Assembly (NCBI GenBank): GCA_028554795.2
Contig: JAPYKE020000278.1
Location: 370,020-434,019, forward strand
DNA length: 64,000 nt
Source: Sinohyriopsis cumingii
Taxonomy: Eukaryota > Mollusca > Bivalvia > Unionida > Unionidae
Reading direction: 5' to 3'
The notes under the pieces were generated by a model. That model was given only the letters and a program-made list of their open reading frames with translations, was not told where the DNA came from and searched no databases. The translations under genes were made by a program, and so were the position numbers. Positions 1 through 64,000 of the stretch are shown here, in pieces; the first letter of the stretch is position 1; each line of letters opens with the position of its first letter.

Positions 1-40
1 TATATATATATATATATATATATATATATATATATATATA
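1..40. repeat. (TA)n end of the preceding unit
   Basis: Twenty TA dinucleotides directly before the first unit boundary. They match the right-hand end of the (AT)n tracts that separate the other units, so at least one more unit lies to the left. Confidence 0.95.
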
Positions 41-285
41 TTAGTACCTGACCGCAGAGATAAGAAGACAGAAAAATGTACACAGCTCAATCAACCGTCA
101 CAGTTGCATGCCGACTAGTAGATTACTGATTAGTGTATCAGCCAGTATCGCAATAATATATCCGACTTGCTTTTCAAGGTTGCTATTGGTCAAGCCTAAC
201 GTCAAGCAACCAATAGGGGCGTGCCAAGAATTCTAGGCCTTAACTGTGTCGATTTATAGCAAAGTGTGTGAAATGTCAACTCGTG
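41..285. other. Unit 1 unique head, promoter-like but no gene
   Basis: Non-coding 245 bp after the AT tract, repeated at the head of each unit. It contains the inverted CCAAT pair and a TATA-like site described separately. I see no protein similarity in it. Confidence 0.6.
183..216. promoter_or_regulatory. Inverted CCAAT pair, 8-bp arms (template copy)
   Basis: CTATTGGT at 183-190 and its exact reverse complement ACCAATAG at 209-216 are separated by 18 bases. Each arm holds a CCAAT-box core, the site NF-Y binds in animals. A TTTATAG site lies at 253-259 and the CT run starts at 286. The order resembles an RNA polymerase II promoter, but there is no recognisable gene downstream. Copies occur in all units; unit 13 has a change directly beside the left arm. 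Confidence 0.35.
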
Positions 286-332
286 CTCTCTCTCTCTCTC
301 TCTCTCTCTCTCTATGTATATATATATATATA
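286..332. repeat. (CT)n-(TA)n compound microsatellite (template copy)
   Basis: Fourteen CT repeats, then ATG and a TA run. Counts for units 1 to 22 are 14, 14, 14, 15, 14, 17, 8, 18, 8, 21, 9, 14, 15, 18, 15, 16, 18, 17, 14, 17, 17, 15. The pyrimidine run is a mirror repeat of the kind able to form triplex DNA. Confidence 0.95.
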
Positions 333-480
333 ATTATGAGATACATAATTAACACTTGCAGTAAAATAATATATTTGATATGAAGGATCTGATCTATACT
401 ATTAAATTATATTGAACATGAAGATATCAATCAAATAGGTATAATGCATACAAGCACAGGAATTCATGTGTACATTATAT
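333..480. other. AT-rich spacer between microsatellites (template copy)
   Basis: Stop-dense AT-rich sequence with no recognisable gene. Invariant across units except a private G to C in unit 6. Confidence 0.7.
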
Positions 481-508
481 GTATGTATGTATGTATGTAT
501 GTATGTAT
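481..508. repeat. (GTAT)n microsatellite (template copy)
   Basis: Seven perfect GTAT repeats followed by GTGTATT. Counts for units 1 to 22 are 7, 7, 7, 7, 7, 6, 9, 6, 10, 10, 8, 9, 7, 7, 6, 10, 13, 6, 7, 13, 6, 7. The series is a useful fingerprint for relationships between units. Confidence 0.95.
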
Positions 509-59615: not shown

Positions 59616-60502
59616 GAAAAATACAATATCTTCTTTAGTGGTACAATACATTTGTGCAAACTCATGGGGACTCAGACTTGACTTAACATATAATATACAC
59701 GGGGACTGGTCTACTAATTAAATACAGACCGAATAACATTCCTTTCTCTCAAAAAGTGGAACTTATAAATCAGGTGCAACATTAATTAAATAGCGACATA
59801 ATACAACCTTCAGAAAGACTTTGGTAAAGTCTCGAAATACTGTCTAAGAACCCAGACATAAACTATCGTTTCGTGGTTGACTATCCCCGTTTGAATTCCA
59901 TGTGTAAGAAGAAGGTCTATCTCCTACCAAAAGTAGGAGAAATATTGGAAGCATTATGTAGACTGCTTGTCTATACGCCATCATGTATCAATTAGTGAAC
60001 AATGTTTAGAGAGAACTGTTTTTTGTTTCCTATTAATTCGGTATCGGTATTGGGATTTGAAATGGAGGATGTTTACGGGCCTTCCAGTGATATATAGATC
60101 ATCAAATGAAATGAACTGAGTTCTGGTATACATGGAGGACATAATAATACTTCCCTCTATGTCTCTTGGTCGTGTGCTTGATTCATAATAGGTGTTTGAC
60201 AGACTAAGAAAAACAAATATCAAATTAAAACTGGATAAATGTACATTTTTCATACACAAAAAAACCCCCTACTTTCTTGGTCATGTTGTCACCAATGATG
60301 CGATTACAGTTTCCGATGATAAAAATAACACCGTTATGGAGCTTTCAACAGTGGTAAATTAACGAACCTACCGTGAAATTTTAGGCGTTGCCTTGTATTG
60401 CGCAACTTTTGGTTCGGCTTTTGAATGATGATAGTACGTAGGGATGGAATGGTGATTGAGAATTGGCCAATAACAGTCAAAAAATACACTGTCCACTGAA
60501 CC
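59616..60502 (+). pseudogene. Ty3/gypsy RT fossil, unit 21
   Basis: Private C to A at 60110 changes to Glu the Asp codon that unit 8 changes to Asn. Confidence 0.86.
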
Positions 60503-61256
60503 AATTTTTATTATAATTATAATTACACTTGCTAGCAGACAATTAAACAAAGCTGTTAAAATATATAGGTAATTGAAATATAGACCCTTGCAAGAGTGTA
60601 TATATTATACACTTTTAGAAAATATATATGTGGTCACATCTTCTCTGCAGTCTATTAAAATGACATTTTGGAATGAAAGATCAGAGTCGGAGGCTAGCCA
60701 AAATGGTGTCTGTAAATTCAGGAGGATAACAACAAAGTAAAGCACAGTCATCGAAATTCTCATGGAAATGAAATCGGCTTAGTGGACAATATAACAAGTG
60801 TGTGATGTTAGTAGAGATGACAAAAGATAAGATTTACAAATAAAAAAGGACAGGACATTGAACCAGATCTTTAGCTACAATATATGCGCAAATAACTTGA
60901 AAAGATATGCCTTATATGGATATATATTTTAATCTCATTATAAGGTTCTTGTGTGACAATACTTTGTACAGTCAGTGCCTCGTAAGGCGGCTGATATAGC
61001 TCTGGTTACGAACTGATAAACAGTGTAATATCTCACATATGGTCATCATGCACAAACGTTAATCGTGACTCATTAACTGATTAGCGTTTTTCCTTTTAAA
61101 CATAACGCATGTTACAAAATAAAAGCATGGTACATCATGCTATTACATTTACAGCAATGAACATCGACGAAGATTCATAATTTGCAAATTAAGGAAATAT
61201 ATTAAAGCAGATATACAAACATTAGCATATATATATACACAGACACACATACATAC

Positions 61257-61345
61257 ATATATATATATATATATATATATATATATATATATATATATAT
61301 ATATATATATATATATATATATATATATATATATATATATATATA
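61257..61345. repeat. (AT)n tract between units 21 and 22, 89 bp
   Basis: Lacks the T to A change although the corresponding unit 18 tract has it; contraction or reversion after duplication is possible. Confidence 0.95.
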
Positions 61346-64000
61346 TTAGTACCTGACCGCAGAGATAAGAAGACAGAAAAATGTACACAGCTCAATCAAC
61401 CGTCACAGTTGCATGCCGACTAGTAGATTACTGATTAGTGTATCAGCCAGTATCGCAATAATATATCCGATTTGCTTTTCAAGGTTGCTATTGGTCAAGC
61501 CTAACGTCAAGCAACCAATAGGGGCGTGCCAAGAATTCTAGGCCTTAACTGTGTCGATTTATAGCAAAGTGTGTGAAATGTCAACTCGTGCTCTCTCTCT
61601 CTCTCTCTCTCTCTCTCTCTATATATATATATATATATTTATAATTATGAGATACATAATTAACACTTGCAGTAAAATAATATATTTGATATGAAGGATC
61701 TGATCTATACTATTAAATTATATTGAACATGAAGATATCAATCAAATAGGTATAATGCATACAAGCACAGGAATTCATGTGTACATTATATGTATGTATG
61801 TATGTATGTATGTATGTATGTGTATTCATATGTGTATGCATACTGACACATGTAGAAAATAACGTTTAATAGGCCTTTATGTCAACCGGAATGAATTTGG
61901 GTGAAGCGAAATAATTATGTTGTGAAAATAACATGGAATTTTGTTAAGTAGTTTCTGAAGATTGATCAATTTATTTGACATATTGAATGTACGTATGTAT
62001 GTACTCGTGTCTGACTGAAAGCATTTGTTATCACGCCTTAAGGTAGATGCTCTAATTGCTTCAGTGCAAGGTATAATCCCTGAGTGATGCTACTTAAACG
62101 ATAAATACAAAGCCAGGGTTTGATACGGTCCAGCATTAACCAATGTTTATATTCCGTGTCGGCTTTCCAATTTTTGTTTGTCATGGCTCATGCTATATCC
62201 TGTTCTATTCTTCAATCCATTAGGTTAGGGTTAGGTAAACGTATTCTTTGTTAGTTGTACAAATATTTGTATACAGATTAAAATGAGTTAAGCAAATCCC
62301 AGATTAGACACAAATGGCAAGGGTCACGTCTGTTTACTAATATTACCAAAGAACGTCATCTGGAACCATGACCGATGCCCATAGTTGGCTTATATGTGGA
62401 AATAGCTAGCAACGAATCAAGATGGCCACCATGTGATGAACATATTAAGAATGAAAAGTTTGAAGTTAGCGACCATGACTTTGATATTCACCGGATGAAA
62501 TCTTGTGTAGAATAACAAGAAAAATACAATATCTTCTTTAGTGGTACAATACATTTGTGCAAACTCATGGGGACTCAGACTTGACTTAACATATAATATA
62601 CACGGGGACTGGTCTACTAATTAAATACAGACCGAATAACATTCCTTTCTCTCAAAAAGTGGAACTTATAAATCAGGTGCAACATTAATTAAATAGCGAC
62701 ATAATACAACCTTCAGAAAGACTTTGGTAAAGTCTCGAAATACTGTCTAAGAACCCAGACATAAACTATCGTTTCGTGGTTGACTATCCCCGTTTGAATT
62801 CCATGTGTAAGAAGAAGGTCTATCTCCTACCAAAAGTAGGAGAAATATTGGAAGCATTATGTAGACTGCTTGTCTATACGCCATCATGTATCAATTAGTG
62901 AACAATGTTTAGAGAGAACTGTTTTTTGTTTCCTATTAATTCGGTATCGGTATTGGGATTTGAAATGGAGGATGTTTACGGGCCTTCCAGTGATATATAG
63001 ATCATCAAATGACATGAACTGAGTTCTGGTATACATGGAGGACATAATAATACTTCCCTCTATGTCTCTTGGTCGTGTGCTTGATTCATAATAGGTGTTT
63101 GACAGACTAAGAAAAACAAATATCAAATTAAAACTGGATAAATGTACATTTTTCATACACAAAAAAACCCCCTACTTTCTTGGTCATGTTGTCACCAATG
63201 ATGCGATTACAGTTTCCGATGATAAAAATAACACCGTTATGGAGCTTTCAACAGTGGTAAATTAACGAACCTACCGTGAAATTTTAGGCGTTGCCTTGTA
63301 TTGCGCAACTTTTGGTTCGGTTTTTGAATGATGATAGTACGTAGGGATGGAATGGTGATTGAGAATTGGCCAATAACAGTCAAAAAATACACTGTCCACT
63401 GAACCAATTTTTATTATAATTATAATTACACTTGCTAGCAGACAATTAAACAAAGCTGTTAAAATATATAGGTAATTGAAATATAGACCCTTGCAAGAGT
63501 GTATATATTATACACTTTTAGAAAATATATATGTGGTCACATCTTCTCTGCAGTCTATTAAAATGACATTTTGGAATGAAAGATCAGAGTCGGAGGCTAG
63601 CCAAAATGGTGTCTGTAAATTCAGGAGGATAACAACAAAGTAAAGCACAGTCATCGAAATTCTCATGGAAATGAAATCGGCTTAGTGGACAATATAACAA
63701 GTGTGTGATGTTAGTAGAGATGACAAAAGATAAGATTTACAAATAAAAAAGGACAGGACATTGAACCAGATCTTTAGCTACAATATATGCGCAAATAACT
63801 TGAAAAGATATGCCTTATATGGATATATATTTTAATCTCATTATAAGGTTCTTGTGTGACAATACTTTGTACAGTCAGTGCCTCGTAAGGCGGCTGATAT
63901 AGCTCTGGTTACGAACTGATAAACAGTGTAATATCTCACATATGGTCATCATGCACAAACGTTAATCGTGACTCATTAACTGATTAGCGTTTTTCCTTTA
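61346..64000. repeat. Repeat unit 22 (partial, 2655 bp)
   Basis: It has 15 CT, 7 GTAT and the TTTATAATT head variant. C to T at 63321 is shared with unit 19. The window ends about 175 bp before the expected start of the tail AT tract. The final base is A where the other units have T. Confidence 0.97.
62519..63405 (+). pseudogene. Ty3/gypsy RT fossil, unit 22
   Basis: C to T at 63321, shared with unit 19. The fossil is complete although its unit is cut by the window end. Confidence 0.86.

Follow-up and report, generated by a model that had tools for sequence, protein, structure and literature searches.

A 2.9-kb macrosatellite with a decayed Ty3/gypsy reverse-transcriptase remnant and variable embedded simple repeats in the bivalve Sinohyriopsis cumingii

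Tandem arrays with monomers longer than 500 bp are classed as macrosatellites or megasatellites (PMC12692304), and four described systems bear on the array reported here, as they are set out in the passages cited. The human X-linked array DXZ4 is an uninterrupted run of 12–100 copies of a 3.0-kb unit; its 18 sequenced monomers are at least 99% identical and differ mainly at three microsatellites inside the unit, one of them (CT)9-16. DXZ4 is a CpG island of 62% GC that is transcribed and, on the inactive X, has CTCF bound to it (PMC3081327). The human megasatellites that contain transposable elements, including a 3.5-kb MaLR LTR family, have kilobase-scale, gene-free units composed of MaLR LTRs or of further named elements; one family occurs on 11 chromosomes, the LTR arrays show higher-order structure, and growth was presumably by unequal crossing over (PMC2588610). 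The RNU2 macrosatellite carries U2 snRNA genes in a 6.1 kb unit present in 5–82 copies, with unequal exchange between sister chromatids as the likeliest cause of changes in copy number (PMC4132748). The retrotransposon-derived satellites of Lathyrus originate in Ogre elements, from the short tandem repeats that lie downstream of gag-pol (PMC7004042). The 2.9-kb unit described below was not named in the titles and opening abstract lines of the related reviews and arrays among the matches listed, and an exact-phrase literature search returned nothing.

The window, i.e., the whole 64-kb stretch of DNA that was analysed, is a single tandem array (1..64000, forward strand, as are all features below), which agrees with the reading of an earlier note on this DNA. 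Bases 1–40 are TA repeats forming the tail of a preceding unit, and are followed head to tail, without interruption and in a single strand orientation, by 21 complete units and a partial one. Anchors placed 22 unit starts across the window (41, 2968, 5877 and so on to 61346). The complete units are 2869–2961 bp long and the partial one (U22, 2655 bases) is ended by the window edge, so that the window both starts and ends within a unit. The first complete unit, U01 (41..2967, 2927 bp, delimited by anchors), was used as the reference copy; the phase of the unit is arbitrary, its start having been set directly after the (TA)n tract. Repeated 31-mers cover 63,187 of the 63,970 31-mer positions in the window, with only 4,113 distinct 31-mers, and the unit body has 35% GC and an observed/expected CpG ratio of 0.75. 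With its kilobase-scale head-to-tail unit and high within-array identity, the array belongs with the macrosatellites or megasatellites and is best filed as a macrosatellite, a known kind. The earlier description of the unit as unusually long was overstated, as non-coding units of 3.0–6.0 kb appear in the published accounts cited above (PMC3081327, PMC2588610). The same note called the array nearly perfect, which holds for the core of the unit but not for its embedded simple repeats.

When simple repeats were excluded, the mean pairwise difference between units was 0.18% and the maximum 0.41% (231 pairs, 2685 columns). Substitutions occupied 33 of the 2685 core columns, 24 of the variants were singletons (one of them doubtful), and there were no core indels among complete units. 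All 21 complete units are distinct in sequence. Variation in unit length sits in the simple repeats, namely a (CT)n tract followed by an AT-rich run (286..331; CT count 8–21 among the 22 units), a (TATG)n tract (478..510; 7–14 copies among the 22 units) and the terminal (TA)n of the (CATA)n/(TA)n tract where one unit meets the next (2841..2967). The uninterrupted (TA) run preceding the next anchor ranged from 10 to 128 nt across 21 anchors, and the predicted fold of the junction tract allows one long hairpin. Microsatellite differences between units are stepwise. A permissive Rfam search of positions 1–6000 gave 26 miRNA and snoRNA matches (mir-297 and others), which were dismissed as chance matches to low-complexity sequence because they scored far below the gathering score and lay at or beside simple repeats.

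A decayed Ty3/gypsy reverse transcriptase (RT) remnant lies within the unit at about 1306–1993. Its N-terminal piece (1306..1569) found a Ty3 RT as best phmmer hit (chain residues 63–150, E 0.0057) and had no hit in a Pfam search. The C-terminal piece (1700..1993), collinear with the first in a different frame, also had a Ty3 RT as best phmmer hit (chain residues 206–301, E 0.0075) and matched Pfam RVT_1 with E values of 0.0018 and 0.023, both below the curated cut-off. There are three stop codons in the stretch searched for the former (1264–1584) and four in that for the latter (1694–2017); all seven are common to 22/22 units, indicating that the RT was dead before amplification. An intact gag-pol (protease, RT, RNase H, integrase) was absent from the six frames of U01, where only the stop-ridden RT was recognised, and, outside simple repeats, no direct repeat listed for the unit exceeds 21 nt; on these searches the array is not an intact Ty3/gypsy element in tandem. 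Along the unit the distribution of substitutions is even (KS p 0.95 for 32 sites) and the RT relic shows no deficit of them (9/32 observed, 8.8 expected), as would be expected without constraint.

Coding and RNA searches found no intact gene in the array. Rfam gave no match in the window at the gathering score, a tRNA search with bacterial settings gave no tRNAs, and RVT_1, below cut-off, was the sole Pfam match in six frames of U01; an array bearing rRNA, snRNA, tRNA or histone genes was not found. The earlier statement that the array holds no gene is thus borne out for intact genes as far as these searches go, but passes over the decayed retrotransposon RT. Sequence searches covered prokaryote, virus and plasmid collections, whose negatives say little about eukaryotes: there was no blastn match of one unit to plasmid and phage collections, no exact match of one 24-mer to genome contigs or of three patterns of 24–26 bases to viral contigs, and the 124 matches to an RT-piece pattern in genome contigs included no relative by tblastn. 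The dead RT, the concentration of variation in simple repeats and the block structure of the units had all been missed in the first reading.

That block structure is seen in the order of the units. Units U17–U19 (46739..55495) appear to be the source or the copy of a three-unit block duplication, matching U20–U22 (55496..64000, ended by the window edge) in microsatellites and substitutions; only 7/2000 permuted orders matched equally well on both markers, whereas on substitutions alone the block is weak (142/2000). Units U01–U05 form a near-uniform run, with four alike neighbour pairs from U01 obtained in 0/2000 permutations, and nearer units are somewhat more similar (Mantel r 0.24, 82/10000 permutations as high). 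Microsatellite similarity was significant at lag 2 (p 0.0022), while mean similarity at lags 1 and 3 was not (p 0.18 and 0.19). Variants lie in contiguous blocks at five of the six shared sites tested (of 11 shared sites), site 1271 being unclustered (7 runs, p 1.0). All four combinations occur in 22 of the 55 pairs among the 11 shared sites, and such marker combinations need exchange, conversion or repeated mutation; two of these sites (282 and 294) may reflect recurrent mutation, as they fall in a masked simple-repeat block. Two further patterns were considered and set aside. The alternating CT numbers of U06–U11 (14614..32027; 17, 8, 18, 8, 21, 9) suggested a two-unit series, which the substitutions did not support (differences of 7 for U06–U08, 6 for U08–U10, 5 for U07–U09 and 3 for U09–U11, where the 231 pairs average 4.8). 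A crude association test gave no sign that the (TA)n tract is a preferred exchange point, with phi between sites 2587 and 126 of 0.87 across the tract (next unit) and 0.74 within the unit, and between sites 2640 and 126 of 0.22 and 0.28, respectively. The fast microsatellites mark each unit and make part of the recent duplication order readable, and the array is a possible natural record of macrosatellite growth.

In our assessment the array is very probably a non-coding eukaryotic macrosatellite, recently amplified and kept uniform by unequal exchange and gene conversion. Its simple repeats and Ty3-like RT, and the lack of matches in prokaryote, phage and plasmid collections, point to eukaryotic DNA. 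The starting piece would have been ∼2.9 kb of AT-rich genomic DNA in which several microsatellites and the dead fragment of a Ty3/gypsy RT were already present; recent tandem amplification would have followed, with uniformity kept up by gene conversion and by unequal exchange, for which sister chromatids are the likeliest partners. Core uniformity and the blocks in unit order support the recent amplification and/or homogenisation proposed in the earlier note, and unequal sister exchange, as opposed to another route, probably made the array. Homogeneity alone does not discriminate between unequal exchange and a recent rolling-circle insertion, in which a concatemer copied from an extrachromosomal circle of 2.9 kb, or of a multiple of it, would have been inserted in a single step or a small number of steps, with point and microsatellite mutation thereafter. 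We regard this origin as unlikely, though it would account for near-identical copies without core indels among complete units and may yet have begun the process. The lag-2 periodicity could reflect a dimeric circle, but the substitutions of U06–U11 do not bear this out, and the variant blocks and four-gamete failures suggest later exchange or conversion. It is very unlikely indeed that the assembler expanded a shorter array. Long near-identical arrays are hard to assemble and the array length could still be wrong, but consensus copying would not yield 21 distinct complete units, the singletons and stepwise microsatellite differences.

The array probably lacks a sequence-specific function. A centromeric or pericentromeric role, or a DXZ4-like architectural one with the unit as promoter or protein-binding site, seems improbable, despite the structural parallel with DXZ4 and the two inverted CCAAT motifs and GC box near 185–221 of the unit. 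The CCAAT pair may be chance, since CCAAT is found 10 times in the unit, on both strands. Substitutions are spread evenly, neither the CTCF-core nor the CENP-B-box consensus had an exact match in U01, which for a centromeric role is not decisive, and on its composition the unit does not appear CpG-rich in the manner of DXZ4. A more speculative idea, to which we give little credence, is that the (TA)n junction tracts are replication-fragile sites through which the unit drives its own amplification, or, in a variant, that a young centromere or a block of a sex chromosome is what the array represents. If the fragile-site idea is true, this would be a satellite spreading because of its breakage; that idea is testable, and otherwise the array is one more young satellite.

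Compared with the RNU2 macrosatellite as described, the recently amplified, non-coding array favoured here is alike in its kilobase unit and in the probable role of unequal sister-chromatid exchange but has no RNA gene at the Rfam threshold. It shares a Ty3/gypsy link with the Lathyrus satellites, unlike which it has an RT-coding piece that takes up only a small share of a long unit. From the published descriptions, DXZ4 and the human megasatellites that contain transposable elements appear to be close structural parallels. Like the latter, the present array has a gene-free kilobase unit with transposable element pieces, although the only such part recognised here is one RT fragment of ∼0.7 kb. 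The likeness to DXZ4 is one of structure: the present unit has 35% GC, no exact CTCF-core match and a dead RT, but the two arrays share unit size, array form, identity (at least 99% in DXZ4) and variation in microsatellites, a CT repeat among them.

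A 24-base anchor sequence recurs 22 times along the + strand of the window (at 41, 2968, 5877 and onwards to 61346), delimiting 21 complete head-to-tail units of 2869–2961 bp each and a final unit cut at 2655 bases; window bases 1–40 belong to the preceding unit and form its (TA)n tail. The proposal in the earlier note that the whole window is a single tandem array is thus borne out. The window contains 4,113 distinct 31-mers, and repeated 31-mers cover 63,187 of its 63,970 31-mer positions, which is repetition far beyond chance. Both ends of the window lie inside the array, whose assembled length is therefore at least 64 kb.

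After alignment of all 22 units and masking of three blocks of columns holding simple repeats, 2685 columns remained, of which 33 carried substitutions and none carried an indel among the 21 complete units. Pairwise difference in these unmasked columns averaged 0.18% (range 0 to 0.41% across 231 pairs, one of them identical), and the minor alleles comprised 24 singletons and nine shared variants. One of the 33 substitution columns lies at the cut end of the last unit and is doubtful; later counts are therefore based on 32. At a rate of 1e-8 substitutions per site per generation, which is assumed rather than measured, a difference of 0.18% would correspond to coalescence at about 90,000 generations. 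The differences in unit length arise in the simple repeats, namely (CT)n (8–21 copies among units), an adjoining length-variable AT run, (TATG)n (7–14 copies) and the (CATA)/(TA) tail, where the unbroken (TA) run ahead of the next anchor spans 10–128 nt across 21 anchors. With these repeats counted in, no two of the 21 complete units have the same sequence, so the near-perfect copying reported from the initial reading holds outside the simple repeats but not within them.

Variants are ordered along the array to some extent. Similarity between units falls off somewhat with distance (Mantel r 0.24, with 82 of 10,000 permutations as high), and five of the six sites tested for run clustering, out of 11 shared sites (two of which fall inside a simple-repeat block), form significantly fewer runs than expected by chance (p 0.0078 or less). 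The A/G variant at unit site 1271, found in the non-adjacent units U04, U06 and U11, is unclustered (7 runs, p 1.0), unlike the five other shared variants tested; repeated mutation or conversion may account for this scatter. All four allele combinations are present in 22 of the 55 pairs of shared sites, which requires exchange, conversion or repeated mutation.

The last three units (U20, U21, U22) echo the three before them (U17, U18, U19): TATG numbers are 14, 7 and 8 in each trio, T at site 1976 is confined to U19 and U22, and T at site 294 to U18, U19, U21 and U22. An equally good match was obtained in 7 of 2000 permuted orders on combined distance and in 142 of 2000 on substitutions alone, the feature weights in these unit-similarity permutation tests having been chosen after inspection of the allele table. 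The change AAATATATATA breaks the TA tract in the tails of U17, U18 and U20 (ends near 49681, 52600 and 58442), whereas the tail of U21 lacks it; replacement of tails may therefore be independent of the rest of the unit. Units U01–U05 share near-identical microsatellite alleles (none of 2000 permuted orders did as well; four pairs, combined distance), although neighbours are 3–4 substitutions apart. Across U06–U11 the CT number alternates (17, 8, 18, 8, 21, 9), and microsatellite similarity over the array is significant at lag 2 (p 0.0022) and not at lags 1, 3 and 4 (p 0.15–0.19). The microsatellites thus suggest a two-unit series in U06–U11, but the substitutions do not support it, the lag-2 pairs differing by 7, 6, 5 and 3 substitutions against an all-pair mean of 4.8.

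The array had also been described as holding no gene, and this agrees with our searches: no Rfam family reached its gathering score in the window, ARAGORN (bacterial settings) predicted no tRNA, and the longest ATG-started ORF has 90 codons. A permissive search of positions 1–6000 gave 26 microRNA/snoRNA matches, all dismissed as far below cut-off and at or beside simple repeats. Two stretches, first spotted by eye from their motifs, resembled a Ty3/gypsy reverse transcriptase. In separate searches, Ty3 RT was the best PDB match both for window 1306–1569 (chain residues 63–150, E 0.0057; the third and final match, to an acetylcholine receptor, is noise at E 0.69) and for 1700–1993 (residues 206–301, E 0.0075). 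Each piece is weak alone (aligned-stretch score 0.018 for both); Ty3 RT nonetheless ranks first for both, and the two pieces agree with it in order, strand and approximate spacing. In Pfam, the first unit translated in six frames with stops as X matched RVT_1 alone (E 0.023, below the curated cut-off); among ten separate pieces, two overlapping ones matched it (E 0.0018 and 0.023) and eight, including the N-terminal RT piece, had no match. The stretches searched hold 3 and 4 stop codons in different frames. That these stops are identical in 22 of 22 units, with substitutions in the region at the expected frequency (9 of 32 observed, 8.8 expected), shows that the element was already dead when the unit amplified. 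Simple repeats aside, no direct repeat listed for the unit exceeds 21 nt; the array is thus no mere string of LTR elements, with the caveat that an LTR could be present once per unit, unrecognised.

The unit body has a GC content of 35% and a CpG observed/expected ratio of 0.75, which would be high in a vertebrate and is compatible with invertebrates or plants. A telomere-like 16-mer, TTAGGTTAGGGTTAGG, lies at 909–924 and recurs once per unit, giving 22 occurrences in the window; none of 1500 simulated units contained the 11-mer TTAGGGTTAGG. The 16-mer hints at a host with TTAGGG telomeres and is perhaps an old interstitial telomeric remnant. At 185–221, in the unit's highest-GC 300-base bin (0.40), a CCAAT pair in inverted orientation, 20 bases apart, is followed by a GC-box-like GGGGCG. 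This looks promoter-like by eye and may have arisen by chance, as CCAAT occurs ten times in the unit.

Duplication of a segment followed by misaligned exchange is the most economical account of the array. A stretch of genomic DNA carrying a dead RT and microsatellites would have become duplicated, after which copies would misalign and exchange, probably between sister chromatids, enlarging the array and homogenising it one to a few units at a time. Sister-chromatid exchange is argued for in a report on RNU2 (PMC4132748). The array may have begun with a rolling-circle insertion, but such an insertion alone leaves the reshuffled variants unexplained. The (TA)n tract at the unit junction is near-perfectly self-complementary (arms 2841–2904 and 2905–2968, 94% complementary), and its fold as single-stranded DNA is a single long hairpin at -35.1 kcal/mol, below all 200 shuffles, shuffling being a weak control for such a sequence. 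A role for this tract as a break-prone site is plausible: a review describes WRN-dependent, replication-inhibiting structures at expanded TA repeats in microsatellite-unstable cancers (PMC11311767). Variants are associated across the tract about as strongly as they are inside a unit, so the window lends this role no positive support.

As far as can be judged from sequence alone, the array is a real, young, non-coding macrosatellite. The unit was not found in prokaryote, virus and plasmid sequence collections (eukaryotic genomes being outside their scope), and nothing listed in our literature searches names it. The kind of array is nevertheless known, since both DXZ4 and megasatellites containing transposable-element sequence have been described. 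A 2008 report described human megasatellites that contain repeated pieces of transposable elements and presumably grew by unequal crossing over (PMC2588610). Human DXZ4 has a 3.0-kb unit in 12–100 copies; its 18 sequenced monomers are at least 99% identical, and three internal microsatellites, (CT)9–16 included, hold most of the variation (PMC3081327). The first unit of the present array contains no exact CTCF-core match. On the published features considered here, DXZ4 and the present array are strikingly alike in form but differ in base composition.
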